Positions 1-28,023 of a DNA stretch of 29,364 bases are shown in pieces. Numbering within the stretch: the first letter of the stretch is position 1; each line of letters begins with the position of its first letter. The translations under genes and the position numbers were made by a program. This DNA comes from a virus: IMG/VR virus record IMGVR_UViG_3300017767_000081, positions 1 through 29,364 of that record. One strand, 5' to 3'. A model generated the notes under the pieces. It had not been told where the DNA came from. It worked only from the letters and a program-made list of their open reading frames with translations, and did no database searches.

Positions 1-2864
1 ACTTCTAAAGTAGTTCCTCCATTTTCAAAATTTACGTAAGGTGTAAGATTTATATATTGATAATTATTTTGAGATGTTGAGGTTAGTCTTCTTAAATAAA
101 CTCCATAAGTATTTTGAACAGGCCAAGTAATAGATGTAACTCTTATCTTTTCAGGATTTACATACTGACCTTGATATGAAACCTCAAACTTAGAAGTTCT
201 TGTTGGGTCTTCATTTACTTTGTCATCTGTATCTTCAAAACCTAAGTCAGTATCGTATACAAAAATGTTGTCTCCAACTTCAAAGTCTCCCTGAATATCG
301 TAGTAATCTAAATCTAAATTTATACTTCTTTTTGTTCTTTTAAGTTCATTTAAGAAAGCTAAAGCTCTTTCTTCTCTGCTTATGTATGGATGGTCTGGTT
401 CTGTGACGTAAGTTGCTCTTTCTAGTTTTTCACCATTTATACCTCTATATGGATTATCAGTATCAATAACATCTACTGCATCGTATTGCGAATTTCCATC
501 TGAGTAAATGTATTCAACAGTAGAAACATATTCTGTTGCATCAAAAGAAGTTTTTATAGCAGCTGGATTTATACCCGTTATAGCAGGGTCATCTCCACTT
601 CCTTCTCTAACTATTAGAGTCGTTGGGTCTGTGGTGTGTCCAGTAAAAAGATTTTCTCTTGGTCCTACATCTAAAAGTAATTTACCTACATTTGTACCAC
701 CTGGTATAGGTCTTGGTGTATCATCTGCACTTGTACCTATTCTCAACTTATATTCAATATCTAGTTGTACAGAAGCTTTATCTAAGGCACTAGAAACAGT
801 TTCTATGTGATGCTTACCGTAATAATTAGCATTGGTATTTACAATTGCAGGAGCAGATGTTGGTGTAGTAAAGTTTGAAGTGTATTTAGCAACTCCTTTA
901 GAAAGGCGTAATCCATCTATATATCCGTAATAATAATCAGCACCTTGTGAACGTCCAATAGACAAGTCAAGTGCAGTTTTTTCATATGAAGAACTAGGGT
1001 CAGCGACTGGTATTTTAATAGCTTTACTTGATTGCCAAGTATCTTGCTGGACTCCATTCTTAAATGTTCTAAATGTTGTACCACTTCTTGTTATAGCAAA
1101 GTGATTCCATGCACCATAGTTGATACTTCCCATTGATTTACCATCAGCAATATCGAATGCAGAAGTTATACCACTTTCTGTTGCAGTACCACTTTCATTA
1201 GAACGAATATATACTTTAGATACACCATTTCCACTTTCGTTTAATCCAATCATAAATGATGGTAGTTGTGATTCTCCTGTTGATGAGATTACTGCTCCAT
1301 GTTTAGTTGCAGCTCTTTTGTCACTAAATGCTGATTTACCGTGAAAGAACGAATCACCATCTTGCCAATACTTCGCATAATAGGATTGGTATATAGGATG
1401 AAATGTCCAATATTCTGTACCGTATTCGTCTGTATCTAAGTTCTCTACTGTTGTACCGAAATATTCATCTAAATAAGTACTTACGTCAAATCTATCATTT
1501 GTCCAAAAATCTGTAGTAGGTAAGTCTCCGACACCTATAGTCAATAGTTCATCTACATTGATTACACCATCACCATCTGTATCAATTGCTGAAGGTACAT
1601 ATGGTACTGTGCTTATTCCTCCTGGAATATTGTGTAAAGCTATTAACGAAGGGTTATCACCAGGAGGTCTTTTACTGGCTGTCTGATAGTCTCCAGATTT
1701 ATAGTCTTTAGGAGCAAAGTGAAAGTCTGTAGTAATTGCAGGACCTCCAGCATACCAATCAGGGTTTAGAGTTATACCTGTATGAGCATCAGAGCTACCA
1801 GCTTGTGCAGTTACTATAGAACTTAAACTATGTGTGGTAGTTGTCTTGTCGCTTTTAAGCATTAAGTTAATTAGCTGTTGCATGTGTGTAACTAATTTAC
1901 TTGAAAACCTATATTCGTTTGTTCCCATAATAGGCTTAACTGCAAACCAAGGAATTTGATAAGCTGCTGAATCATAAGCTGATAAATGACTGGCTTGAGT
2001 CACAGATGTTCCATCAACTTGTTTGTATTGATGAATGAAGTGACTTCTGCTTAAAACTTGTGGTCCTTTTATATAAGCAATCAAACACATTATGTCAAAA
2101 TGTTCTTGAGCTAGTGCGTTATCATAAGGGAAAGCATCTGCATTGTTAGCCATTATTGTCCTAACAAGAGGCACTATTCCATTAGCACCTGTTAAAGAAT
2201 CAGTAGCTAATTGTTTTGCTAATGTGTATGAAAATATTTGATTTGTGCTTACTGTGTCATCACCAGTATATTTAAAGTTTGTATCTGCATCTGTTACCTT
2301 ACTTCCATTACCAGTACCACTTTTAGGCAAGTAATGACCGCCAGAACCAACAGAAGCACCATAAGATACAGGAAATGTATACGAACTACCACCTATTTGT
2401 ATACCATTTATATTAACTTGTCTATATAAACCATTTGCATGTCTATAAGGATTTGGAATTTGTAAAGAGGAAGATAAGACTGGATTTAATAGTTCTGCAC
2501 TTGTTCCCAAACCAATACGTAAGTTACCTCCAATAAATGCGTGTAAATCTGGATTGTAAGGAACTCTACCATGAGTATTTAAATTACTATGTGCATAGTT
2601 TTGCTGTCTCTTAAAAAATATATTACCTGTTGTATATGCACTCGTATTTATAGGTTCGTTGTATGCATAAAAAGTATTTATGTCATTATTACTTGCGTCA
2701 ACAAGTAAGTCATCTAAACCTAAATCTGTTCTAACATCTTTGTTGTTAATAATATGAGGATAAGCATCATCATAAACCCAAGGGACGTAACCTACAACAG
2801 GATATAGAATATCATCAATAAAGGTATTACTGATTGTTGCTGAAGATACATTAAATTGTGGCAT
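1..2864 (-). CDS. Tail tip/hub protein with second half of a LamG domain (3'-truncated by window edge)
   Basis: An open frame of 954 codons starts at ATG 2864 and runs off the left edge without a stop, so the C-terminus is missing. Residues 1 to about 490 are unrecognised, apart from a DTDGDG calcium-loop-like motif at 428-433. Residues about 500-665 look like the later strands of a LamG/concanavalin-type jelly roll, with WNHFAITRSG around 586 and GYIDGLRLSKGVAKY around 650, but the first strands of the fold are absent. Residues 665-954 carry features of siphovirus tail hub (Tal-like) proteins, including VGDNIFVYD near 865. The start lies one base after the TGA of the upstream gene, so translation is probably coupled. 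By position (after tape measure and distal tail genes) it should sit at the tail tip and contact the host. The hub assignment is inference; the LamG call rests on motifs and is fairly firm. Confidence 0.75.
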   Translation of the reverse strand, partial: MPQFNVSSATISNTFIDDILYPVVGYVPWVYDDAYPHIINNKDVRTDLGLDDLLVDASNNDINTFYAYNEPINTSAYTTGNIFFKRQQNYAHSNLNTHGRVPYNPDLHAFIGGNLRIGLGTSAELLNPVLSSSLQIPNPYRHANGLYRQVNINGIQIGGSSYTFPVSYGASVGSGGHYLPKSGTGNGSKVTDADTNFKYTGDDTVSTNQIFSYTLAKQLATDSLTGANGIVPLVRTIMANNADAFPYDNALAQEHFDIMCLIAYIKGPQVLSRSHFIHQYKQVDGTSVTQASHLSAYDSAAYQIPWFAVKPIMGTNEYRFSSKLVTHMQQLINLMLKSDKTTTTHSLSSIVTAQAGSSDAHTGITLNPDWYAGGPAITTDFHFAPKDYKSGDYQTASKRPPGDNPSLIALHNIPGGISTVPYVPSAIDTDGDGVINVDELLTIGVGDLPTTDFWTNDRFDVSTYLDEYFGTTVENLDTDEYGTEYWTFHPIYQSYYAKYWQDGDSFFHGKSAFSDKRAATKHGAVISSTGESQLPSFMIGLNESGNGVSKVYIRSNESGTATESGITSAFDIADGKSMGSINYGAWNHFAITRSGTTFRTFKNGVQQDTWQSSKAIKIPVADPSSSYEKTALDLSIGRSQGADYYYGYIDGLRLSKGVAKYTSNFTTPTSAPAIVNTNANYYGKHHIETVSSALDKASVQLDIEYKLRIGTSADDTPRPIPGGTNVGKLLLDVGPRENLFTGHTTDPTTLIVREGSGDDPAITGINPAAIKTSFDATEYVSTVEYIYSDGNSQYDAVDVIDTDNPYRGINGEKLERATYVTEPDHPYISREERALAFLNELKRTKRSINLDLDYYDIQGDFEVGDNIFVYDTDLGFEDTDDKVNEDPTRTSKFEVSYQGQYVNPEKIRVTSITWPVQNTYGVYLRRLTSTSQNNYQYINLTPYVNFENGGTTLE

Positions 2865-2865
2865 A

Positions 2866-3564
2866 TCAACTAGAAGGGTCTAATCTATATTCCCACCACT
2901 CAATTGTGAAATCATCTCCTGATGGATGAAAAGTAGGATGGTAATCAACTTTAGCATGTGAGTTAGGTGCTGAAAGGTCTAAAGACTTACTACCAAACTT
3001 AGCTTGGTCTGCGTCAATCTCTGCACCTAAGTAGCAAGTAAACTCATGTTTATGCTCTGTCTCATCTAAAGTTTTAATATTACTTGTTGGGTTTTCAAAA
3101 TTTAAAAGTAAATCTGTTTCTTCATCCGATTTCTCTGTAATTGTACCTGGCCATACTCCTCGTAGTTCTCCATTGTCATTTCTTCTTAGTACACCATAAG
3201 GTGCTCCGCTATCATTATTTACAAAATATTCTAAAGTTACTGCTGTATAGTCCCTAGGTGCAGTAGATGTTCCTACATCCGTTACAGGCATACCTCGATT
3301 CTCAGCATCTCCTAAGTATAAATTTAATCCAGAACCTTCTATTTGAGCTACTTCTGGTTCTATACCTAAAGAAGTAATTACACCAATATATTCAGCAGTA
3401 GGCAACATAACACTATCAATGTAATCTTGAGTTTCCATTGGATTATTTGTAATAATAATTTGGTCGTATGGCTGTATAGCTGTAAGTATTGAGTTTGGAA
3501 CTAAAGATAGGTCTAATCCTATATTAAAAACACCTGGTGCCATCAATTTTTCTGTAACTGACAT
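2866..3564 (-). CDS. Tail tip/hub N-terminal protein ending in the first half of a LamG domain
   Basis: This 232-aa protein follows the distal tail gene with a TAATG stop-start overlap. Residues 1-145 resemble the N-terminal part of a tail hub protein by position and by motifs such as FNIGLDLSLVP, but I cannot name a family with certainty. Residues 151-232 match the opening strands of a LamG_3-type domain: LLLNFE at 152-157, KFGSKSLDL at 189-197 and DDFTIEWWEYRLDP at 217-230. The protein stops there at TGA, where a LamG domain would normally continue for another 100 or more residues. The missing part is present in the next gene after about 500 unrelated residues. Either the domain was split by an insertion or the two products complement each other. 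The reading frame is clear; the role is inferred. Confidence 0.7.
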   Translation of the reverse strand: MSVTEKLMAPGVFNIGLDLSLVPNSILTAIQPYDQIIITNNPMETQDYIDSVMLPTAEYIGVITSLGIEPEVAQIEGSGLNLYLGDAENRGMPVTDVGTSTAPRDYTAVTLEYFVNNDSGAPYGVLRRNDNGELRGVWPGTITEKSDEETDLLLNFENPTSNIKTLDETEHKHEFTCYLGAEIDADQAKFGSKSLDLSAPNSHAKVDYHPTFHPSGDDFTIEWWEYRLDPSS

Positions 3565-4931
3565 TACGCTTTAATTATCCTTTGTGCTTCATTAACATTG
3601 TCAATATATTGCTTAAAAACTGAATCTGCATCATTGTGTCCAAGAGGAGCAGATGTAGATGAGTCAACTAACTCATATCCAACTACTGCAGAGAAAGTAG
3701 AACCATTAGTAGCTCTTTGTATCATTCCTCTGTTAGTTATAGAAGTATTTGATTCTAAATCATGTGGGCTTCCTAATATCCAAAAGTTACCATCTTCTGG
3801 TGAAGTAGTACCGTCTTTTAAGTATCCATTATTTAAATTAGTTGCTGAAGCATTTGTTGATGGAGCTGTAGACAAACTTATATTCAATGGTGTTCCAGCA
3901 GTATGACTATTAGAAATAATTGACATATGATGCGCTCCTCTTCTTAATGCAAAATCTACTACAAGTCTACCTGATTTATCAGTATCTTTAAAGGTTGTAC
4001 ATCTAACTACTACAACTTCAGGTCTATTTGTTAGTATTTGCACTCTATGCCATCCATCATACTCTGTTCCTAAATGACTTCCTGAAACAGGGTCACCTAA
4101 ACTAAATGCCCATTCTTGTTCAGTTGAATATGCAGTTTCATCCCAAATGTAAGTTTTAAATTTAGATTGTGTAGTTGATGTACCAAGAACCATTTTAATT
4201 AATCCATTTTCTATTATTAAAGAATCACCGACATTCCATTGTCCTGCATATTTACCATGTCTTACACTGTCTATACTTGATGAAGAGTTTGTTGCATAAT
4301 TGTGTTCTGTGTGTTGACCCATACTTACTCTACAAGCTCCTTTGTAATAATCCTCAATATCTACAGAATATTGAGCATTGCTACTTCTTATGCTTGCTCC
4401 TGTTTTTAAATATAAAGTTGTTGTATCTGTTGCACTAGTAGTTTCTAAATTAGAGGCTGTTCTTGTATTAGAAGCACCAACATTATTATGAAAGTATGCA
4501 TAGTGATTACCTGGTGGTGCATGAAACTGCTCAGTAGTAGAGCTAATGCTATGATTATTTTCTAAAATAGAACCTGTCAATCTAGATTCAAAGTTTACAT
4601 CTCCTTCTCTACCTAGATATTCTAATTGAACACTATAACCAAAACCTCCTAATACATATCTAGTAGTATCTAGATTTGCACTTAAAATCTTTACAAAACC
4701 ATTTAAAGAAGTGTCACCATTATATTGAAGTGGAAATACTTCATCACATGCAGCCATTGAGGAAAGTTCATCCCTTATATATTTCAAATGGTCTACTTCG
4801 TTTTCTGCACCACCTAATTTACCATTTATAGTAACTTGTTTACCACCTGGTGAAGCGCTTATGTTTATTTGACTAGGAGAAGTAAACTTTAGTCTTCCTA
4901 TTTGTAATACATAGTTTGATATATAACTCAT
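3564..4931 (-). CDS. Distal tail (Dit-like) protein
   Basis: This 455-aa protein sits directly after the tape measure gene, overlapping it by 4 nt, which is the usual place of the distal tail protein. That protein forms the ring joining tail tube to tail tip. The N-terminal ~115 residues contain the expected pattern of a beta-rich ring domain (YVLQIGRLKF at 7-16, then a GGKQVTINGKLGG stretch and a GFGYSVQLEYLG strand near residue 97). The remaining ~340 residues are Ser/Thr/Asn-rich and beta-like, and could be a carbohydrate-binding or lectin-like extension; no catalytic motif is visible. Known Dit proteins vary from about 250 to over 500 residues, so the length is acceptable. The call rests mainly on gene order. 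Confidence 0.65.
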   Translation of the reverse strand: MSYISNYVLQIGRLKFTSPSQINISASPGGKQVTINGKLGGAENEVDHLKYIRDELSSMAACDEVFPLQYNGDTSLNGFVKILSANLDTTRYVLGGFGYSVQLEYLGREGDVNFESRLTGSILENNHSISSTTEQFHAPPGNHYAYFHNNVGASNTRTASNLETTSATDTTTLYLKTGASIRSSNAQYSVDIEDYYKGACRVSMGQHTEHNYATNSSSSIDSVRHGKYAGQWNVGDSLIIENGLIKMVLGTSTTQSKFKTYIWDETAYSTEQEWAFSLGDPVSGSHLGTEYDGWHRVQILTNRPEVVVVRCTTFKDTDKSGRLVVDFALRRGAHHMSIISNSHTAGTPLNISLSTAPSTNASATNLNNGYLKDGTTSPEDGNFWILGSPHDLESNTSITNRGMIQRATNGSTFSAVVGYELVDSSTSAPLGHNDADSVFKQYIDNVNEAQRIIKA

Positions 4932-7900
4932 CTTCTACTTAATCCTCCACCAGCAATTCCTTCTCTATCTAATCTATTCAAAGCACCTCTTATCTGAACA
5001 GCAGCTTTTCTAGCACTTGTAGGGTCAGCAGGAACTCCTGTGACGTTTACATTTAAATTTTCTACTATAGTATTTGTACCACGTCCACCTTGAGTTAATG
5101 GTTTTACTAAGAAACCAGAACCAGGTACAAACTTTACTTCTTCAGGACCATACTCTCCCACAAGAGCTCTTCTCATAGTGTCGCCTCTACCACCATATTT
5201 ATAACCCTTAGTTCTCATACCCATCATACCTGTAGGAACGGGGTCCCTTCGGAATGGCTTATAGATTTCAGCAAGTAGTTCCATATCTCTGAGATAGCTA
5301 TCAGTAAATTTATATCCAAGCTTCATACCAAGACCACCAACACCACCTTTTGATATAGGGTCATCAGGGTTTTGTGGTCCAACTTCATCTGCTGTAAAAT
5401 ATTGTTCTGCTATTGCTGCAGCTGCATTTAATGCAGATAACATTTCTACAACTGGTGTTAAAGTAGTAAGAATTTTTGTATTATCTACCTCTCCAAAAGC
5501 ATTTGTGGCATCTAGAACTGCTTGCACACTATCACTTACACCACCAAAGTGGTCTTCTAATACCTGTAATTCGTTTAAGAACTCTGGAGCTTTTTCTTTA
5601 TAAGCTAGCTGTGCTGTTTCTAAAGCTATAATTCCATTAGCAACACCTTCAGATGCAGCTTCAATTTTACCAAAAGCTATTTCTTTTTGGTCACCAAATG
5701 TTTCTAATTGAAATATTAATGATGCTTCAGCATCTCTAAGTTGTTGAAGTTGTTCGTCTTCTAGTAAAACTAATCTCTCTGTTTCTTGTAATTGTTCTTT
5801 AGCTAAAGCAGATTCAATAAAGAATAATTCCTTTTCAGCTTCTGATTTGAAACCTCCTGTCATATCTCTTAGTCTGTCTTGTTCTGATTCTAACTCTAAA
5901 GCTCCAGTAGCCCCTAAATTAAACATTCTTTGTAATTCTGCTACTTTTTTAGTTTGTTCATTAATTCCAAGTTGTTCTGATGCAGTAAAGTCACCTCTTA
6001 GTCTTCTTTCTCTATCCTCTATACTTATTTGTTGACTTAAGACATCACGTCTTTCAGATAAAGTAATATTTCCTGCAACTCCATCTCTTTCCATTTTTTG
6101 ACGCTTTCTTGATGTTTCGGAAAGTTGTCTCTGTATTGTTTTCTCAGAATTAAGTAACATAACGTAATCAAATTTAGATTGTGCTAATGTTTGAGCATTT
6201 TGAACCTGTTGTCTTTCAGCTTTAGTTATATCAGTAGTTAAATTAAATGCTTCTCGTAATTTACCAACAGCAGATTGTCTACCTTTAGAAACCATTTTAG
6301 CAAAGTCTTTTACAACACCTTCAGGGTCTGCTCCAGCACCCATAGCAGTAAGAGTAAATTCAATATCTTTTTTACTACCTCCAGCACCTTTTAATAAATC
6401 AATAAAATCTTGCATTCCAGGAACTTCAGCAGCTGCTTTGTCGACTGCATTCTTAACAACACCAACATAGGCATCAGCAACCTTATCTTTCATAAAGAAT
6501 GGTGCTAGTGCTATACCATCAATCATTGGTACACCGATTTCACGGAACATTAACATAGACGGAGATGATGAGTCTATATATAATTTAGTTTCATCAACTA
6601 CAAATTTCATAGTGTCAACTAAAGCAGTTGCTAATGCTCCTTCTCTATTAGCAAATCCTTTTGCTATACCGTCGACAATATCTTCTCCTAGTTGTTCATT
6701 TTCAGTAAGTCCTGGGTTTGTAGTACCAAATATATCTTGCAAATAGTCAGGTCCTACTGCTGCAGCTAGTGCTTGTTCTTGGGCTACTGCCATTCCAGGT
6801 CTTGTAGCAAATCTCTTTCCAAGTTCTAAACCGCCACCTTGAACTCCCATTTGAGCTAATTGGTCAGCAAGTAAAGGATTAGTCTTTCTTAATTGTTGTA
6901 TTACTCTTTCAAATTCTGCTTGTGCAAGAGCTTTGGCTTGAGTTTGACCTACCAATTCTAACAAAGTCATATCATCAAATTGATTATCAGGTAATGGTTT
7001 AGTAAAGTCAACCATTGCACTTCTTGCTTTCTTAAAGGCATCTTCAATTCTTATAGCTAATCTAAGAGCAGCCATTTCAGTAACACCAAACTCGTCCATC
7101 AAAGCATCAACACCTTTTTTGTTTTCGTTAATAAATTTTTCTTGTGCATTTTTAAATAAGTCAAATATTTTGTTATAATCGTCACCAGCATTATTTAGTT
7201 CATCTCTTGTTATGGTTCCTGCAGCTTCAAAGTCGTTTAATCTCTGTTTTAAAAATGCCTTTATTGCTTTAGCTGCTGGTGCTGATTCGTCTATTGCTGC
7301 AAAACCATCCATAGCATCTACAGTTTCTCCTGTCATTCCTTGAATGGCTAATATAAATCCAGATGTATCTACGACCATCTGTGCCAATTCATCGTTAGTC
7401 AAACCCATACCTTTTGTCAGCTCTTTAACTCTATCAACTACAGGTGCCAAAAAGCTATCATCTAATACGGTTTCAGCTGTAGCACCTCCTCTTATGAAGT
7501 CTCTTATACTGCCACCTATCTCCATGTATATTTCTTCAAGATTATTGATTTCTAATTTTTCACCCTCAATACCTAGGAATTTTAAAAACTCTTCACCATT
7601 CATTGCCTCTGATTCGTTGATTAGTTGTTCTATTATCTTTGCAGAAGTTCCTCTAAAAAATCCAGAAGGCAACATATCTTCTGCACCAAAAGTTCCTTCT
7701 TCAAATAAAAGGTTGCTTATAATCTTATTTCCAGTTGGTAACTTACCGTCTTCAGCCATACTCATTAAAGAATTACCCACTGCTTCAGACATTCTTTCCG
7801 ATGTACCCTCTGCATCTTGAGCAAACATACCACCAAATTCTATTAATCTTTCTAAAGCAGTTCCGCTAGCTACACCATCATCATTTTTTCCAAAAGTAGA

Positions 7901-10558
7901 AGTCATAATCTGGTTTATGAAACTTTCACCTATATCTCTTCTTACAGCTATTGATTGATTAAGTAAAGATTGTTCTAATTGCTCAATCTCCTTTTCTAAA
8001 ATTTCAACTATTTGTGCATCTCCTGCATTGTCTAGTAATAGTTGACGTGCTGAAGCAAGTTTTTCAGTATTTGTTGTTAATTCTTGAGTCGCTTGGTCCA
8101 TCTCTCTCATAGACTGAGTAAATTGCATAACTCCTCTTGCTTGCTCACCTATTTTTTCTACAAACTTAAATGCAACAGTTAAAGCAATACCAATAGCTGC
8201 TAATTTACTAAAACCTTTAACCATACCCTTAAGAGTATTTGAGAGTCTTCCAGTTTTAGATTCTACGTCCTGCATAGCTAAAGCTAATTCACCGCCCTTT
8301 ATGTCTCCTGCGTTTAAGGCTTCTACGGAATCTTGAAGATTTTTTTGAAACACTGCACTGTCTTTAGCAATAATTGGCATAGCTTTTTCTAATCTTTTTC
8401 TATCGAATAATCCTCTAATACCTTTACGTCCATCGACGCTCATTGCTTTTTGGAACTCTAGACCAATGTCACCAGTTTTTGAAAGGTTTTCTCGTAGTAT
8501 ATTTATACCTTTTGTTTTGCCTCCCCTACCAAAAGGCATTAAATCTTTAATTAAACCATTTAATTCTACGACACGTCTTTTGTTTATAGTTCTAAGTCTT
8601 TTTAATCTTTCTACATCGTCTAATAAAACTTTATCAACTTTTTTAGACCCTAAACCACTAAATATACTGCCACCTTCTTTGATATTCCTTAATCCACCTT
8701 TTTTATCTAAAAGACTTTCTACTAATCTTTGATTTTTATTTACAGAACTTTTAGCCTTTAGAGCTCCAAATAAACTACTTGGGTCTTGTATTTGATTAAA
8801 TACAGAACGCTTTCTTAGTTTTCTTACTTGTCTGCTCTCTTTTAGGAAATCAGTTTGTAAATTTCCAACAGCAGCCATACTGCTACTACCAAATTTAGTC
8901 ATGGTTTGTCCTGGACCATCTAACATAAATTTCATTGACTGAGGAACTCTACCGCCGTAAATAGTTTCTAGTAAAGCTGGATTAGCTACTACAGCTTTAC
9001 GCATTTCAGCATTTTTACCAGCTTTTAATGGATTAAGACTTATTCCACCTTTAAGTCCTCTATTGTAAAAACCACCTTCTGATAACTCTTGTTGAAATTC
9101 TGGAGTACCTAAAGCTGACTTTTCTCCTATCATTCTCATTCCACCACGAGAACCAGGTCCTGTAAGTGTTCCTGCTTGTAGTGAAGCATTAAACGCAGCA
9201 GTATTATTAATAGCTGCTTTAGCGTTAAAGGCATACAGACCCATTTCTTCTCTTACTACTGCTAGGGAACCTTTATAAGCTCTCAAACCTGCAATTAATA
9301 CAGTTATACCTCCAAAAAATCTAAATGACATATTTAATGCAGATGTAAAACCTTTAACTAGAGCGAATATTGCATTGTTAAATTGTCTTACTATTTCTGT
9401 ACCAGTATCTATGTTCTCTAAACCGAAATCTAAAATCTCACCTTTTATAACATTTTTACCTTTTGTTATTTCAGAAACTAAAGTTGCATATCTTCTTTCT
9501 GCTTCTTCATTCAAAGCATTGTTTTCTATAAAAGCGTCATTAGCTACATCAATAGCTTCAAATAATGTATCGCTTGCTTTAGCTGTTGCTAATATAGCTT
9601 TCTGTGTTCTAACCTGACCCAAGCCAAGTTTCTGTAGAACACCTATGTTTGTCATACCTATTTTTTCAGTATCATTTAATCCGTCTATAAATAATGCGAC
9701 TGCTTTAGTTGAATCTACATCAAACAAACTCTTAAAACTATCTGTTGACATTCCTGCAACTTTAGAGAAAAGTTCTAAATTAGCTCCACCTAAAGCTATA
9801 GCTTCAGAAAGCTCAGTCATTAATCTGACTATTGCAGTAGCACCTGCTTGTGAAGGTTGACCAATAGCTTTTAGAACTGTTGAAAATGCTAATGCATCTA
9901 CTGCTGTTTGGTTCATTTCTCCACCAATTTGAGCAGTTGCTGTTGCTATTTGTAATGCTGCATTTACTATTTCAGATTCTGTAGCTGCAAAGTTGTTACC
10001 TAAAGCAACAAGAGATGAAGCTAAATTGTCTAATTCTGTTCCAGTAGTACCAGTAATTTCTTGAAGTCGAGCCATTGATAGAGCTGCTTGGTCTGCTGAT
10101 AGGTTTGTAGCTATTGTAAGTTTTTGTATTGTATCTGTGAAGCTTACTATCTCACTAGCAGCTACACCCAACTGACCACCAATAGCAGCAATTTCATTTA
10201 TTGCTTGTGTTGTAATTGGAGCAAGTTTAACCATATCCCTTAAACGTTTAGAAATATTATCAAAAGCTTGTTCAGCCTGTCTTGTATCTCCAGCTACATT
10301 TAAAGTCTTTTTAACATTTACAAATTGTTCTTCAAAAGCTGCAGCAGCGGCAATGCTTGCACCAAATGCTGCCACATAACCAGCACCAATCATAGCTGCA
10401 GATTGTTGAGTAATGTTTGAAGCTCTTCCTATTGCTTTTAACTTACCTGTTAAAGCAGAGTAGCTTTGTGCAATATCCTTATTGGCTCGGTTAAGTGATT
10501 GTTTATCATAACCAGCTTCTATTATTGCACGTACTTTAAATGCGTTTACTGATGCCAT
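4928..10558 (-). CDS. Tail tape measure protein (TP901 type)
   Basis: This 1876-aa protein is the longest in the window and follows the frameshifted chaperone pair, the standard location. Residues 55-330 show the TP901 tape measure core: an Ala-rich segment at 62-75, AIGGQLGVAASEIVSFTDTI near 125-144 and AIGQPSQAGATAIVRLM near 231-247. Hydrophobic segments at about 397-427 and near 790-815 could enter the membrane during DNA ejection. SSSPSMLMFREIGVPMIDG near 1330 is a motif common in the distal part of these proteins. Residues about 1420-1640 are Glu/Gln/Leu-rich and probably coiled coil. No peptidase or lysozyme motif was seen. By the general rule of about 0.15 nm per residue, the tail would be near 280 nm. 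Confidence 0.93.
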   Translation of the reverse strand: MASVNAFKVRAIIEAGYDKQSLNRANKDIAQSYSALTGKLKAIGRASNITQQSAAMIGAGYVAAFGASIAAAAAFEEQFVNVKKTLNVAGDTRQAEQAFDNISKRLRDMVKLAPITTQAINEIAAIGGQLGVAASEIVSFTDTIQKLTIATNLSADQAALSMARLQEITGTTGTELDNLASSLVALGNNFAATESEIVNAALQIATATAQIGGEMNQTAVDALAFSTVLKAIGQPSQAGATAIVRLMTELSEAIALGGANLELFSKVAGMSTDSFKSLFDVDSTKAVALFIDGLNDTEKIGMTNIGVLQKLGLGQVRTQKAILATAKASDTLFEAIDVANDAFIENNALNEEAERRYATLVSEITKGKNVIKGEILDFGLENIDTGTEIVRQFNNAIFALVKGFTSALNMSFRFFGGITVLIAGLRAYKGSLAVVREEMGLYAFNAKAAINNTAAFNASLQAGTLTGPGSRGGMRMIGEKSALGTPEFQQELSEGGFYNRGLKGGISLNPLKAGKNAEMRKAVVANPALLETIYGGRVPQSMKFMLDGPGQTMTKFGSSSMAAVGNLQTDFLKESRQVRKLRKRSVFNQIQDPSSLFGALKAKSSVNKNQRLVESLLDKKGGLRNIKEGGSIFSGLGSKKVDKVLLDDVERLKRLRTINKRRVVELNGLIKDLMPFGRGGKTKGINILRENLSKTGDIGLEFQKAMSVDGRKGIRGLFDRKRLEKAMPIIAKDSAVFQKNLQDSVEALNAGDIKGGELALAMQDVESKTGRLSNTLKGMVKGFSKLAAIGIALTVAFKFVEKIGEQARGVMQFTQSMREMDQATQELTTNTEKLASARQLLLDNAGDAQIVEILEKEIEQLEQSLLNQSIAVRRDIGESFINQIMTSTFGKNDDGVASGTALERLIEFGGMFAQDAEGTSERMSEAVGNSLMSMAEDGKLPTGNKIISNLLFEEGTFGAEDMLPSGFFRGTSAKIIEQLINESEAMNGEEFLKFLGIEGEKLEINNLEEIYMEIGGSIRDFIRGGATAETVLDDSFLAPVVDRVKELTKGMGLTNDELAQMVVDTSGFILAIQGMTGETVDAMDGFAAIDESAPAAKAIKAFLKQRLNDFEAAGTITRDELNNAGDDYNKIFDLFKNAQEKFINENKKGVDALMDEFGVTEMAALRLAIRIEDAFKKARSAMVDFTKPLPDNQFDDMTLLELVGQTQAKALAQAEFERVIQQLRKTNPLLADQLAQMGVQGGGLELGKRFATRPGMAVAQEQALAAAVGPDYLQDIFGTTNPGLTENEQLGEDIVDGIAKGFANREGALATALVDTMKFVVDETKLYIDSSSPSMLMFREIGVPMIDGIALAPFFMKDKVADAYVGVVKNAVDKAAAEVPGMQDFIDLLKGAGGSKKDIEFTLTAMGAGADPEGVVKDFAKMVSKGRQSAVGKLREAFNLTTDITKAERQQVQNAQTLAQSKFDYVMLLNSEKTIQRQLSETSRKRQKMERDGVAGNITLSERRDVLSQQISIEDRERRLRGDFTASEQLGINEQTKKVAELQRMFNLGATGALELESEQDRLRDMTGGFKSEAEKELFFIESALAKEQLQETERLVLLEDEQLQQLRDAEASLIFQLETFGDQKEIAFGKIEAASEGVANGIIALETAQLAYKEKAPEFLNELQVLEDHFGGVSDSVQAVLDATNAFGEVDNTKILTTLTPVVEMLSALNAAAAIAEQYFTADEVGPQNPDDPISKGGVGGLGMKLGYKFTDSYLRDMELLAEIYKPFRRDPVPTGMMGMRTKGYKYGGRGDTMRRALVGEYGPEEVKFVPGSGFLVKPLTQGGRGTNTIVENLNVNVTGVPADPTSARKAAVQIRGALNRLDREGIAGGGLSRR

Positions 10559-12789: not shown

Positions 12790-15700
12790 CTACTTATCAT
12801 ATCGTTTCTTTTGATTTCTTAACTTCATAGCTTCTATATAAAATTTATTTTTATCAAAGCTTATATATTCTTTATATGATTCTTTACCAGTTTGTTTTAT
12901 TTTGTAATAAGCTCTACCTGTGTCTGTTTTATGTAGAGAAACGTTTCCTCTTCTACTTTTTTTAACTGTTTTACTATGTTTAACAAAATCTCCAGTGTGA
13001 TTTAAATTAAGAAGATTTGGGTCGTAATCTGTTTTTCTAATAAGTTTAGCTAGTCCTAGCCATGCACTATCAGTCCATAAACGTATATCCATTTGCTGTT
13101 TTAGTTGATAAGCACTCGGTAAATTCATACGAAATATTCTTTCCATTTTCGCATCTATTAGTACCAAACTTATTGGTACTCTTGAAATTCCTTGATGTGG
13201 ACTTAAAAATGCCATAGATTGATAAAAATTTTTTAAAAAATCAGCAGCTTCTGCTTGTGACGATGCATTATGAGCACCAGCAGCAAGTATGGCTGCTATA
13301 TCTATATCATCAATAGTTTGTTCCATAAAAGCATCGTATAAATCATCAGCGACTTGTCTTCCAGCTTTTGCACCACTACCAACTCCAGAAGAACTTCCTA
13401 GCATTCGTATTTTATTTTTAGCTTTAGCAAGTGCTGTTTTTTTGTCAAGAATGTTTATATTAGCTTTTAAATGAGTTTCATCATTATGAACTGCAGGTCC
13501 TCTTTTCTTTTCTGCAACTATAAAACCAAAGTTTGTTTTTATTGTATTATATCTATCGGTTCGATTCCCCATACCTTTAGCTTCTAGAAAAGCATCTAAA
13601 GCAGCTATTTCTTTGGCTACTACGGCATCACTCAATTCTCCTGTTTTACCTGCTTGCATTCTTGTAGTGAAAGCAGCAATCTGATTTCCTACTTTGTCAG
13701 CAACACTTGAATCATTCATTATTGCATTCACCATTTCAGAGTTATCGTTCATGAAATGACTAGCAGAAATACCTGTATCTTCAGCAAGCTCTTGTGCAAT
13801 AGACCATCTCTCACCACGTAAAAATCTTCCATCTGCTCCAACATCTTGCATACCTAATCTCAAACTTTTGTCCCATCTTATTTCTTGAAAATCAGAAACT
13901 CCTAAACTTGACAGTATGGCATCTTCTCTACTATCAAAATTATATATTTTTCCTATTTGTCTTCCTGTAGCATTACCACCTGCAAAGTCTGGCATTAAAG
14001 AACTAATTACAGGTAAGTTATCATCTAACTCAAATTCTTTTCTAAATCCCTGTGCACCTGAAAATGTAACAAAACCTGGAGTACCATTTTCATCATAACC
14101 AAAAGCTATGCCCTGACCTAAGAGTCTTTCTATTTCATCAAATTCTTTTGAAACGTCTATTGACATTGTTTCTTTTGCAAGATTAGCATTTAATCTTGCC
14201 ATTAATGCAGAGTCCATTTTTATACCTTGAGTAGCTCGTCTTAGCCTTTTGTGCATTTCAAATTTAAAATGTTCTTTGTTAGCTTCCAACAAGACAGCAA
14301 GTGTCATTGTTAAACTTCTAAAAGCATCTTCAGTTAAAATTTGATTACCCATAGCTTGCAGTGTTTGTCCTGTAACTCTTGAATAAGTTTTAGCAACAAA
14401 ACCTGCTTGAACTCTAAGTGCCCTTAATAACTCATTTTTTTCTTTTATTTTTCCTTGGGCTGTTAAAAGTTGAATTACAGGAGAAGCTTCTGAATCTGCT
14501 GTTCTAACAAATTGTCTAATTAATTCAGTTTCAAACTCAGCTCCAAAAAACATTTCTCTCATTCTATTGATAGGATGATTAGGATTTTGAGTATCTTTGC
14601 CAAGGTCATTTGTATGCCAAATGCTTCCAGTTCCATTTGGTTTAGTACCTAAAACGAAAGTTTTCTGCATAGCTTCATAAGGATTAGCTATAATAGCTTG
14701 AATATTTATATTTGAATCAAATCCACTCATAGCTAATTCAACTTGTGCTGCTACAGATTCAGCGTTTTGTGCTCCTTGAAAAGCTGCTTTACCTTTTTCG
14801 GTACCTCTTAAAGTCTCAGCTACTCTTGTTTTAGGAGTTTTATGACCTTTTGAAAGTGCATGTCCAGCAGTATCAAAAACCATAGGAACAAGAGGTGTAT
14901 AACCAGTTTCTACACTGATATTACCATCTCTATTCCTAAAAACGTTTTCCACTAAAGGAGATTCAAAACTTCCTGTTAAAAAGTTAAAGTTTGAAGTTCC
15001 ATCGCTATAAGTTTTACTAGTACTACCTCCTGGTTTCATTTGTATTTTTGAGTTTGCATTTTTGAAACCACCTAATTTATTTAAGTTAAACTGTTTATTT
15101 TTACTAGGACCTGTTCCTGTTTGTAAACCACCATCAACAATCCCAAACATTTTTTGTTCTCTTATACTTAAATTTTTAGATACATCATCTATATTTATTT
15201 GACCAAATCCACCACCTTTCTTAAATAAAGTCATTGCTCGTTGGTTTGCTAAACGGACTCCTTCATTACTAAAGTTTGCTTTTCTGTGGTCACTTACAGA
15301 TTTTTTAGCATCAGCAAACATTTTACTTACTCTACGTTGACCTTCAAAATCCATTCTTTTCTTTTCGTTGAATTTTTTTCTAGTAGCATTGAATACACCA
15401 GTACCCTCATCACTCATTCTAAATACTGCGTTATGAATACCTGCTTTACTAGCACTAGCTTTAAATGTTGAACCTTTATCAAAAATACCTAAAAATGCAG
15501 CAGCTTCTGAAGCAGCGGTACCTATAAAAAAACTAGGAAGATAAAACATTCTATCTCCTCTGTTTTTTAATTTACCTTGAGTGTCTGTGGCGGGACCACC
15601 AAACTCTATTGAAACAGCATCTCTAATTTTGTCAGCAGTTTGAGATTTCTCATTCTGACCACCAAAAGATACTTGTTCCCTAAATACAAAACCACTTCCA

Positions 15701-17985
15701 TCTTCTTCGCTCTTACCGTTAAGTTCAATATTGTGCATGTGAATAGACTCAATAATATGCTTTTGAGATGGAACATAATTGTTATGAGAATTTACAAAAG
15801 TGCTTTGACCTCTTCTAACTTCGTTACCACTTTCAAATTTATCTGGTGTGTGAGTTGAGAAATCATCATAATCTGTTACAGGAGGAATTTTAGTATTAAA
15901 TTGTTTTTTGTAATTTTTTTGACTTTTTTTAAATTCTTTTTCTACATGATTTAGTATCTGTTCAGTAGGTACTCCATCTTCAATAAATTTTGTAATTTCA
16001 CGCTCAAGTTTCTGATTCATTCTTTTACCATATTCATCTGTATTTATTGGTTTGCCATCAGGAGAATGCATCTTTACATCTTTAAAAGCTACACTATTTA
16101 CAAATTCATCAATAAAATCATTATTACGGTTTGCAGAACCTGCTATTCCTAAATCTCCCATATTTGCTTTCATTACGTTTTTAGCTATCTCAGCTCTTTT
16201 CCGTCTTGAATTTTGACTGTTTTCCATATAGTCTCTTTTTGATATAGGATATTTTTTCATTCTTTTATCAATTCGACGCTTGTTTTCTATATAGTCATCA
16301 AGACCACTTACATCACTATCTGTTAAATTTAATTCTGTTAATCTAATATCATTATTTGGAAAGTTATTTATGTGCCTATCAGCTTCATTAAATACAGAAC
16401 CGTATTGAAAATTTTGATTATAATCAGACTTTACTTGAATTAATTCTTTTCTTGCTTCCATAAAATGAGAACTGGGGATTGATGTCTCAGAAAAAGCGCC
16501 ACTTGTTCTTAAAACTTTTTTTGGGTCTATAACATTTAATACATCATCAGCAATATCTTCAAAACCTGCTCTACCTATCTCTCCAGTTAATTCTTGTAAT
16601 GCAGAAAAATCTCTAGACAAATCTGCTGCAAGTTTTGTAGATGAAGTTTCATTAGAGGACATGTTACCTGAAAACAGTACAGAAAAAATTCCCTGAGTTA
16701 TTTGTCCCATTCCAGCACCATCACTTAAATTCATACCGACTCTTCCCATCTTTGTTGCATAATTATTAAATGCTTGTATTACTTCAGGATTAGCAGGTAT
16801 GTTTGTAGCTAGTTTTAATATTTCTGCTGCAGAATCTCCTTTAAAGCTATTAAAAGTATTATTACTGTTTAAAAAACTAAGAAAAGCTTTGTCATGTATT
16901 TCTTTTGATAGATTTGTAGTAAATTGATTTGTATCCGGATTAGTTTCTAAACCTTTTGTTCTTTTAAGCCTCTCTGCATTAGCACCTCTAAATCCTAATG
17001 TACTTTTCTTTTCTGGTGTTTGTACATCATCTAAAAGACTTCTATAAGTTAAGTTATCAAATTTATCACTACCTTTTTGTCTAAATTTTTGATTCCTAAA
17101 TTTTTCATTGGCGCCAAATTGTTTCATAATTTCTTTAGAATTTGAAGATTTTTTAAACGTTACACCTTCAGCAGTTAACAAATCATCTATAGCCATAAGC
17201 TTTGCAGTAGCCTCAATAGCGTCTCTTTCTTGAAACATTGAGTCCGACATGTTCATAAGTTTTAATACATGAGCATCTGTATTTGCAGTATGAGGTTCAC
17301 TAACAACAGTCTTTCTAAACTTTTTTTGTTTCATTTGTTGATTTCTTCTAGCTTCTCTTGCTTGAATATATGGATTGTCACGCCAAGGGTCCGGTGCTGT
17401 TTTTATAGCTTTGTAATATGTTAAAGCTTTCCACTTAGCAAATACATTTCCTCTTACTGCTAACTGAGCTTGTTTTTGCACTTCTTTATCGAAAACTTTA
17501 CCGTCACCTATAGCTTCAACGAAAACTTTAAGCTGTTCCTTTTTACCCATATTTCTTGTGTAATGTAGGAATGCAGCTTTTTGCTGACCTACATAAATAT
17601 TTGCTGCTCTGTCAACAGCACCAACACCTGTAGGTGAAGATAGTGCCGATGTTATACTTCCAGCTGCTCTGTTTACAAAACTTGCACCACCTAAAAATCT
17701 ACCTCTACCTGTTAATGCACTTAAGTCACCTTGGAAAGCTTTTTTTATAGAAGCTGCGTTATTTGAAAGTTGACCAATAAAGTAAGGAGCAGCACCCAAC
17801 ATACCAGCATCAAAACCTGGTAATATTGCTGCCGCAGATGTTAAGTTATAACCTATTGCATAAAGTTTGTCTTTTCTTTTAAGACCAGATAAGGACTTAA
17901 ATAAGAATATTTTACTGTTATCTTTTCTCTGTGAAGGAGATTGATAAAGACCTACACCAGACTTTTTACTTAGCCCGAAAGCCAT
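12790..17985 (-). CDS. Giant 1731-aa protein of unknown function in the neck gene cluster
   Basis: I do not recognise this protein. It begins by TAATG overlap with the head-closure gene and ends just before the tail-terminator gene. In typical siphoviruses that slot holds a small HK97 gp10-like gene of about 130-150 residues, so this is more than ten times the usual size. Residues 41-75 are hydrophobic and Ala/Gly-rich, and a second short hydrophobic patch (LPSFFIGTAASEAAAFLGIF) lies mid-protein. The rest is Lys/Asn/Phe-rich and mostly helical-looking with many charged stretches. The C-terminal ~70 residues are very basic (KKSRRG to KKRYDK). I saw no polymerase, nuclease, protease, lysozyme or toxin motif. 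A virion-internal ejected protein or a large neck protein are possible. The frame is uninterrupted, so the gene is surely real. Confidence 0.85.
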   Translation of the reverse strand: MAFGLSKKSGVGLYQSPSQRKDNSKIFLFKSLSGLKRKDKLYAIGYNLTSAAAILPGFDAGMLGAAPYFIGQLSNNAASIKKAFQGDLSALTGRGRFLGGASFVNRAAGSITSALSSPTGVGAVDRAANIYVGQQKAAFLHYTRNMGKKEQLKVFVEAIGDGKVFDKEVQKQAQLAVRGNVFAKWKALTYYKAIKTAPDPWRDNPYIQAREARRNQQMKQKKFRKTVVSEPHTANTDAHVLKLMNMSDSMFQERDAIEATAKLMAIDDLLTAEGVTFKKSSNSKEIMKQFGANEKFRNQKFRQKGSDKFDNLTYRSLLDDVQTPEKKSTLGFRGANAERLKRTKGLETNPDTNQFTTNLSKEIHDKAFLSFLNSNNTFNSFKGDSAAEILKLATNIPANPEVIQAFNNYATKMGRVGMNLSDGAGMGQITQGIFSVLFSGNMSSNETSSTKLAADLSRDFSALQELTGEIGRAGFEDIADDVLNVIDPKKVLRTSGAFSETSIPSSHFMEARKELIQVKSDYNQNFQYGSVFNEADRHINNFPNNDIRLTELNLTDSDVSGLDDYIENKRRIDKRMKKYPISKRDYMENSQNSRRKRAEIAKNVMKANMGDLGIAGSANRNNDFIDEFVNSVAFKDVKMHSPDGKPINTDEYGKRMNQKLEREITKFIEDGVPTEQILNHVEKEFKKSQKNYKKQFNTKIPPVTDYDDFSTHTPDKFESGNEVRRGQSTFVNSHNNYVPSQKHIIESIHMHNIELNGKSEEDGSGFVFREQVSFGGQNEKSQTADKIRDAVSIEFGGPATDTQGKLKNRGDRMFYLPSFFIGTAASEAAAFLGIFDKGSTFKASASKAGIHNAVFRMSDEGTGVFNATRKKFNEKKRMDFEGQRRVSKMFADAKKSVSDHRKANFSNEGVRLANQRAMTLFKKGGGFGQINIDDVSKNLSIREQKMFGIVDGGLQTGTGPSKNKQFNLNKLGGFKNANSKIQMKPGGSTSKTYSDGTSNFNFLTGSFESPLVENVFRNRDGNISVETGYTPLVPMVFDTAGHALSKGHKTPKTRVAETLRGTEKGKAAFQGAQNAESVAAQVELAMSGFDSNINIQAIIANPYEAMQKTFVLGTKPNGTGSIWHTNDLGKDTQNPNHPINRMREMFFGAEFETELIRQFVRTADSEASPVIQLLTAQGKIKEKNELLRALRVQAGFVAKTYSRVTGQTLQAMGNQILTEDAFRSLTMTLAVLLEANKEHFKFEMHKRLRRATQGIKMDSALMARLNANLAKETMSIDVSKEFDEIERLLGQGIAFGYDENGTPGFVTFSGAQGFRKEFELDDNLPVISSLMPDFAGGNATGRQIGKIYNFDSREDAILSSLGVSDFQEIRWDKSLRLGMQDVGADGRFLRGERWSIAQELAEDTGISASHFMNDNSEMVNAIMNDSSVADKVGNQIAAFTTRMQAGKTGELSDAVVAKEIAALDAFLEAKGMGNRTDRYNTIKTNFGFIVAEKKRGPAVHNDETHLKANINILDKKTALAKAKNKIRMLGSSSGVGSGAKAGRQVADDLYDAFMEQTIDDIDIAAILAAGAHNASSQAEAADFLKNFYQSMAFLSPHQGISRVPISLVLIDAKMERIFRMNLPSAYQLKQQMDIRLWTDSAWLGLAKLIRKTDYDPNLLNLNHTGDFVKHSKTVKKSRRGNVSLHKTDTGRAYYKIKQTGKESYKEYISFDKNKFYIEAMKLRNQKKRYDK

Positions 17986-18338: not shown

Positions 18339-18980
18339 TTAGATATTATCAGTAACTTTACTATTTAATGTCCTTTTGTTCCTACGCATGTTGGATTTAC
18401 AAGTTTTACAGAATGGTACTAAACCGTCTTTAAAATTCTTGTTTGAAGTAAAAGATTTTTTTGACTTTTCTTTCTTACATTTAAAACAAGTTTTTCTATC
18501 TACCTTTATAGCAAAGTCATGATTAGCTGAACATTCTATACAAACTTTTACATAGCCATCACTGTATTTTTGACTTTTTTTAAATTCTTCAACTAATTTT
18601 TCTGTTTTGCATAATATACATAATTTATTTGATGGGTTAAGTTTTACTTTTTTGGCTTTGTATTGAGCTTCATTAATAATATTTTGTACTTCTTCGTTAT
18701 CTCTAATCCAAGTTTTAAATGCTTCAAATCCTACAGGTAAATCTTTATATAAATCTCTATTAGCAAGAGTGAATATTCCAAGAGATATTTTTTCGGCAAC
18801 TTGATTTACTACTTGCATGTCAACTTTAAATACGGCACCAACACCTGACTCATGTCGTATTTGTCTTACTCGTTCAGCAGAAGTTCCCCATAAATTAGCC
18901 CATTGTTGTAGGGTTCTATTGGGGTGTGTTAAAAAAAGCTTTCTAGCTTCTTCGGGTTGTGGTGCTTTTCTTGTAGGCAT
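18339..18980 (-). CDS. HTH protein with two tandem four-cysteine zinc fingers
   Basis: This 213-aa protein interrupts the connector and head-closure pair. Residues 21-45 look like a helix-turn-helix of the sigma region 4 type (TLQQWANLWGTSAERVRQIR). Two four-cysteine modules follow with identical spacing: C121-x2-C124-x22-C147-x2-C150 and C165-x2-C168-x22-C191-x2-C194. Such repeats with a DG between the cysteine pairs are common beside phage HNH endonucleases, but no HNH catalytic core is present here. The C-terminus is basic. It is probably a DNA-binding protein, either a regulator or a degenerate homing-endonuclease-like insertion; it is not a normal structural component. Confidence 0.8.
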   Translation of the reverse strand: MPTRKAPQPEEARKLFLTHPNRTLQQWANLWGTSAERVRQIRHESGVGAVFKVDMQVVNQVAEKISLGIFTLANRDLYKDLPVGFEAFKTWIRDNEEVQNIINEAQYKAKKVKLNPSNKLCILCKTEKLVEEFKKSQKYSDGYVKVCIECSANHDFAIKVDRKTCFKCKKEKSKKSFTSNKNFKDGLVPFCKTCKSNMRRNKRTLNSKVTDNI

Positions 18981-27714: not shown

Positions 27715-28023
27715 CTATTCTTCTTCACTAGATACAGGATTGTACATTGTGTACTTAACAGTAATTTCTTCTCCAGCTTGAATGTCTCTTAAGAAATATA
27801 AATACCTTACTCTTTGGACTTCTACAATTTTTGCATTAGGTTCTTCACTATGGTTAATAAATCCACCAAGAGGAGTCCTGTATAGTTTTTTTGTTATAGG
27901 GTCTGTCACATGAGTTATACCAGCATTAAGACCTTTTTCAATATTTATATCTGAAAACAATCCTAAGTTATCTATTGGTGATTTACGAATTGTTAAACCT
28001 TCAGGTAATGGTGTGTATGTCAT
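27715..28023 (-). CDS. Minimal SET-domain protein
   Basis: This 102-aa protein shows the short SET fold: NLGLFSDINIEKG at 19-31, the hallmark FINHSEEPNAK at 55-65, and AGEEITVKY at 83-91 with the conserved Tyr91. SET proteins are S-adenosylmethionine-dependent lysine methyltransferases; the NHS motif and the final tyrosine normally line the active site. It lacks the pre- and post-SET cysteines of eukaryotic enzymes, as is usual in phage versions. Its target is unknown. No clear ribosome binding site is seen. Confidence 0.82.
   Translation of the reverse strand: MTYTPLPEGLTIRKSPIDNLGLFSDINIEKGLNAGITHVTDPITKKLYRTPLGGFINHSEEPNAKIVEVQRVRYLYFLRDIQAGEEITVKYTMYNPVSSEEE

Follow-up and report, generated by a model that had tools for sequence, protein, structure and literature searches.

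Our results confirmed that a single LamG fold is encoded in two pieces by the adjacent genes 1 and 2 of the window, the whole stretch of DNA analyzed here (29,364 nucleotides), which is a 29.4-kb IMG/VR phage fragment from a family of uncultured phages. The fold is in two pieces because it is interrupted by a predicted lysozyme-like domain that brings a start codon of its own. The explanation we favor, to which we assign a probability of about 0.7, is a nested insertion: a hub gene received a LamG domain and then a lysozyme, the latter with gene fission, and the two resulting chains would together restore the lectin, with the lysozyme carried at the tail tip. In the literature searched, no description of a LamG domain split between tail genes was found.

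Gene layout

The minus strand holds most genes of the window, in the order terminase, portal, protease, capsid, connector, tail tube, and tape measure. Genes 1 and 2 are two adjoining ORFs located two genes downstream of the tape measure gene. The features of this region are as follows, with class C denoting the unsplit homologues described below:

4928..10558 (-): tail tape measure protein, 1876 aa (PHROG 13339, 3.2e-66)
3564..4931 (-): 455-aa protein in the distal-tail (Dit) position by synteny, directly upstream of gene 1
2866..3564 (-): gene 1, 232 aa, stop TGA; N-terminal part of the tail-tip (hub-like) protein plus N-terminal LamG strands
3130..3564 (-): hub-N segment, gene 1 aa 1-145, homologous to aa 1-147 of single-gene LamG-free hubs
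2878..3120 (-): LamG N-terminal strands, gene 1 aa 149-229, ending DDFTIEWWEYR
2862..2868 (-): gene boundary TGA-T-ATG within the LamG coding region (TGA 2868-2866, one base, ATG 2864-2862)
3..2864 (-): gene 2, 954 aa, cut by the contig end; lysozyme-fold domain, linker region, LamG C-terminal strands, and hub-C
1842..2858 (-): predicted GH24 (T4/P22-type) lysozyme-fold domain, gene 2 aa ~3-341, from predicted fold, Pfam matches of relatives, and motifs
1299..1841 (-): conserved linker region, gene 2 aa 342-522, ~180 residues; the window copy has a DxDxDG Ca-binding-like motif
846..1298 (-): LamG C-terminal strands, gene 2 aa 523-673 (Laminin_G_3 8.6e-9, profile 35-142; class-C profile 131-218)
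3..839 (-): hub-C segment, gene 2 aa 676-954, cut by the contig end; aligns with single-gene hubs

Complete homologues of gene 2 had 1327-1797 aa. The tape measure gene, the Dit-position gene, and the hub were syntenic in 14 of the 14 loci tested, with split, unsplit LamG, and LamG-free hubs all represented. The label "hub" comes from gene order, because no hub family in PHROGs or Pfam and no PDB hub was matched by the sequence of this part; its Foldseek and VIA lists were uninformative.

The LamG fold is divided between two genes

Matches to two PHROG families began in the terminal part of gene 1 and continued in the central part of gene 2, collinearly and without overlap. In PHROG 24074, for instance, profile positions 415-492 aligned with gene 1 aa 150-227 and positions 524-629 with gene 2 aa 559-678. 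The search with gene 1 alone against Pfam Laminin_G gave no match, and the Laminin_G_3 match of gene 2 covered profile positions 35-142 only. A full-length Laminin_G_3 match within one protein was absent from the window, and both parts were collinear across the gene pair. With the halves joined in silico, for comparison only, the Laminin_G_3 match began at position 7, and the joined halves aligned across the join with single-gene LamG domains from other phages. The observation is real, because the PHROG and Pfam matches complement each other and the joined halves match back to position 7.

A LamG profile was built from the class C homologues, with shuffled sequences as a control; none of the latter scored. 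Gene 1 of the window covered positions 3-84 of this profile (E 2.8e-14) and gene 2 covered 131-218 (E 1.1e-23). Across the split members, gene 1 covered 2-84, and gene 2, in the members where it extends that far, ran from about 79-132 to 220. A preliminary description of the window had proposed that gene 1 ends with the opening LamG strands and that gene 2 has only the later ones, and this complementary coverage bears it out. No second copy of the first strands (profile positions 1-78) was found in gene 2 of any split contig, so a complete sandwich in each protein, the arrangement that the preliminary description had set against a split domain, was not found. The joined halves were 36-43% identical to class C LamG domains (122-152 bits), as against 97-113 bits with the other LamG domains tested. 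In pairs with usable divergence, omega was mostly 0.02-0.23 in both halves. Both are under strong purifying selection.

The boundary is conserved in relatives

Scans of IMG/VR with gene 1, gene 2, the insert, or the tape measure singly gave nothing close. By tblastn against phage records, gene 1 and the insert had no match and gene 2 had LamG matches only. A scan of genome contigs also gave only generic LamG matches, and therefore no host. The family was found through a search with the major capsid protein, which yielded 80 relatives; whole contigs were searched with both proteins and then with a gene-1 profile, and 26 further split contigs were obtained. The split layout thus occurs in 27 IMG/VR contigs, window included.

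In all 27, gene 1 has 229-232 aa and stops shortly after D-F-T-[I/V/M]-E-W-W-E-Y-R, and gene 2 starts with ATG-MPQF, -1 to +8 bases after gene 1. Gene 1 of the relatives was 44-68% identical to that of the window in the contigs measured, and D-F-T-x-E-W-W-E-Y-R was invariant at its C-terminus even at 44% overall identity. The stop codon of gene 1 was TGA in 18 contigs, TAA in eight, and TAG in one, and the frame offset from gene 1 to gene 2 was +1 in 15, +2 in eight, and 0 in four. A Shine-Dalgarno-like GGAG or GGAGG was present directly 5' of gene 2 in seven contigs, and one more had a weaker AGGA match.

These data bear on two explanations in which the split would be only apparent. An assembly or sequencing error could have broken an intact gene, since a one-base change at the window junction would join the frames; the identical boundary in 26 other contigs, at the divergence given above, refutes this explanation, and we give it virtually no weight. 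Recoding (frameshift, stop read-through, or bypassing) would fuse the frames into one polypeptide and leave the split in the DNA only. The +1 arrangement is compatible with it, as several of these contigs end in CCG-TGA-T, where +1 slippage is imaginable, and read-through is possible in L172 and L144, which have no second stop. However, the frame-matched L156 and L161 have a second in-frame stop, the start of gene 2 is the same in every contig, and seven have their own putative ribosome-binding site before it. A boundary that recurs with varied stops and in each of the three frame offsets is the product of neither misassembly nor programmed frameshifting. As general explanations, sequencing error and recoding are thereby excluded, and we regard recoding as very improbable.

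In L165, L169, L170, and L173, a GGGAGG Shine-Dalgarno-like site lies in the last codons of gene 1, directly 5' of TAATG, and overlaps the conserved EYR coding sequence.

The insert begins with a predicted lysozyme-fold domain

The insert comprises ~520 residues, a lysozyme-fold domain first and then a conserved linker of ~180 residues. A profile of the insert copies, compared with PDB sequences, matched only lysozymes, and weakly. Pfam Phage_lysozyme (PF00959) matched the copies of six of 11 relatives, at best with 2.8e-5, and the window copy had no match; the Pfam cut-off for PF00959 was reached in two of 36 records. Residues 3-341 of the window gene 2 model resembled GH24 muramidases by VIA (Z 11.1, 10.9, 10.9, and 10.0, with 11.1 to 7m5i and 10.9 to 6h9d). 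The L144 model gave a VIA Z of 13.4 and a Foldseek value of 2.6e-4 (TMt 0.82), and for both models the top VIA rows were all GH24. The insert is therefore predicted to begin with a GH24 (T4/P22-type) lysozyme-fold domain, the model confidence being low to moderate outside the core. In the preliminary description, the N-terminal ~500 residues of gene 2 were said to be unrelated to the LamG strands that follow. They do precede these strands, but they are not an unrelated segment: they correspond to the predicted lysozyme domain (aa ~3-341) and the linker.

All 26 insert copies found in IMG/VR were within split-hub contigs, and no GH24 match was found in the unsplit and LamG-free contigs searched, which are fragments. 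The composition of the insert was similar to that of the neighboring sequence, and a repeat search around it revealed no convincing target-site duplication.

The catalytic residues of T4 lysozyme are Glu11, Asp20, and Thr26 (PMC3004832). We assigned the corresponding positions by motif. In the window they are V24 (Glu in relatives), D33, and R116 (Thr in relatives). Glu, Asp, and Thr were kept in L149-155, 158-160, 163, 164, 168, and 189, and the clade of L156, L157, L161, L162, L165-L167, and L169-L173 had Ile/Val, Thr/Ser, and Val. By the tree, the catalytic residues were lost twice, separately, in the window and in the L156-type clade.

Between the lysozyme Asp and Thr sites there are ~60 extra residues (window 2529-2765 (-), gene 2 aa ~34-112), ending in the motif (R/K)-x-P-(Y/F/L/V)-(N/D/E)-P/R..H, which is conserved in the aligned split members. 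In the linker (window 1542-1589 (-), gene 2 aa 426-441), DTDGDGVINVDE forms an EF-hand-like calcium motif (EF-hand_5 E 0.0015), present only in the window copy among the aligned relatives.

An insert that interrupts a domain continuous in homologues might also be a self-removing element, an intron or an intein. It is, however, open throughout and encodes the predicted lysozyme-fold domain, and a stop codon and a start codon come before it; neither intein ends (by eye) nor an endonuclease domain were found, and purifying selection acts at the protein level in the members compared. This explanation has next to no chance of being correct.

Unsplit and LamG-free relatives

In 14 contigs (L174-L187, class C), hub-N, LamG, and hub-C are in one gene. 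The ORF has ~998 aa in most of them, L178 and L187 being cut by the contig end; it aligns with the entire gene 1 (36-39% identity) and runs through LamG into hub-C, and Laminin_G_3 was matched at positions 2-142 of 151 within one protein. The preliminary description had suggested a search of metagenomic phages for a homologue with a contiguous LamG, and these ~1000-aa genes are such homologues. They also agree with its proposal that one hub-LamG-hub gene was broken by a segment that brought a start codon, the segment being of ~520 codons. In a third class, hub-N is joined directly to hub-C, without LamG. Scanning with a hub-C profile gave 80 loci: 24 split, 20 unsplit with LamG, and 36 without LamG.

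In the hub tree, the split hubs formed one clade (100/100), and a second (100/99) held the hubs with an unsplit LamG. The split arose once and has been stably inherited. The split clade was closer to a LamG-free clade (90/85), and arrangements that do not make the split and unsplit LamG classes neighbors had 82-90% support; a clade of split plus unsplit LamG hubs was not rejected (p-AU 0.066). Since the tree separates these two classes, either LamG was lost or exchanged, or it entered twice at one site, or the node is wrong. The order hub, LamG, lysozyme is deduced from the anatomy and from LamG similarity, not from the tree.

The history could also have run in the opposite direction, with the two-gene state ancestral and the unsplit LamG hub produced by lysozyme loss and fusion, and it is true that in the hub tree the split class does not branch from within the unsplit class. 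Nevertheless, LamG-free single-gene hubs are widespread and lie on either side of the split class, for which reason the single-gene state appears to be the simpler ancestor. We consider the opposite direction to be quite unlikely.

It had also been suggested that the arrangement diversifies a receptor-binding site. This was not supported: the split arose once (100/100), its position is fixed, purifying selection is strong, and what was inserted is a predicted lysozyme and not a variable binding domain.

Structure models and the putative joint fold

The model of window gene 2 had a mean pLDDT of 45. In L144 both genes are in one frame, and they were folded in cis with TGA read as W. This model had a mean pLDDT of 58, and residues 216-235, which include the terminal DFTVEWWEYR strand, were below 50. 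It supports the lysozyme assignment and does not settle how the LamG halves pack. The LamG region of gene 2 alone had weak lectin-fold matches (Z about 4-4.5).

These models bear on whether the halves act together. The strands of gene 1 might be a leftover or have acquired a new role, with the linker stabilizing the gene 2 half and no joint lectin being formed; the lack of a confident AlphaFold placement for the terminal WWEYR strand and the lectin match kept by gene 2 alone would fit this. What speaks against it is that the C-terminal motif of gene 1 is invariant at 44% identity, that omega is as low as reported above, and that gene 2 has no substitute for profile positions 1-78. On balance we think it unlikely. 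It seems fairly probable instead that the two tail proteins obligatorily complete one LamG beta-sandwich, a natural split lectin with a lysozyme, active or dead depending on the lineage, in one of its loops. The reassembly at the tail tip put forward in the preliminary description is thus retained by inference.

Proposed model and comparison with known systems

In the nested-insertion model, the ancestral tail-tip (hub-like) protein would have been a single chain, and in some lineages a LamG domain came to lie between the hub halves, as in the single gene of class C. In the window lineage, a GH24-type lysozyme ORF with its own ATG and a downstream linker would then have entered the loop after ...DFTIEWWEYR, and because it was inserted there, translation would stop after this motif and restart at MPQF. 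Gene 1 (hub-N and LamG-N) and gene 2 (lysozyme, linker, LamG-C, and hub-C) might be translated one after the other through coupling or reinitiation. Their products would associate so that both the LamG sandwich and the hub are restored across the break, and the lysozyme would be displayed at the tail tip with a free N-terminus. In lineages that keep the triad, it probably cleaves peptidoglycan at DNA entry, like T4 gp5; in the window, which lacks Glu and Thr, a remnant that binds peptidoglycan or has a structural role is more likely. We infer the coupled translation, the two-chain reassembly, the tail-tip location, and the function of the lysozyme.

T4 gp5 has a GH24 lysozyme in the middle of the polypeptide at the tail tip, and the chain is cleaved at Ser351/Ala352 into gp5* and gp5C (PMC3004832). 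The gp5-gp27 complex and our case share a GH24 lysozyme in a tail-tip protein and a tip of broken chains, presumed in ours. In T4, however, the break is proteolytic and located after the lysozyme, whereas in our case the chain is interrupted by a gene boundary that lies before the lysozyme and within LamG. Homology to gp5 or gp27 beyond the lysozyme fold was not detected.

Phage tail Laminin_G_3 and concanavalin-A-like lectins (PF13385; PHROG 24074, 3545) resemble our case in the sequence and the order of both halves, but elsewhere the domain is continuous and here it comes from two genes. The SpmX muramidase domain (6h9d), the endolysins 7m5i and 9kbq, and P22 lysozyme (2anv) have the same fold as that predicted for the insert (Z 10-13). 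The insert differs from them in being the N-terminal domain of a virion-type gene, in its ~60 extra residues between Asp and Thr, and in the loss of catalytic residues in the window. The class C unsplit hubs share the order hub-N, LamG, hub-C and the synteny with the tape measure and Dit-position genes, but they are a single gene without lysozyme or boundary.

If the model is correct, natural relatives show the states of this evolution side by side: a plain hub, a hub with LamG, and a LamG interrupted by a lysozyme. An enzyme could then be inserted into an essential structural protein without one continuous chain being kept, at the cost of a gene split inside a fold, which would be a genetic counterpart of the proteolytic nick of T4 gp5. 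The system would also make obligate fragment complementation in a virion open to test, and likewise the repeated loss of catalysis from a lysozyme domain that is retained.

Other genes of the window

Four other minus-strand genes of the window were noted. A 1731-aa ORF (12790-17985 (-)), without PHROG or Pfam match, is flanked by a head-tail adaptor-like gene and by the tail tube genes, where a protein of this size is unusual. An Endonuclease VII/HNH-like gene (18339-18980 (-)) is inserted amid the head-tail connector genes. The portal protein (22799-25642 (-)) has 947 aa, about twice the usual portal size, and its C-terminal half only weakly matches DUF5824/DUF3721. A 102-aa ORF (27715-28023 (-)) matches the SET domain (PF00856, 1.1e-8), which is rare in phages.
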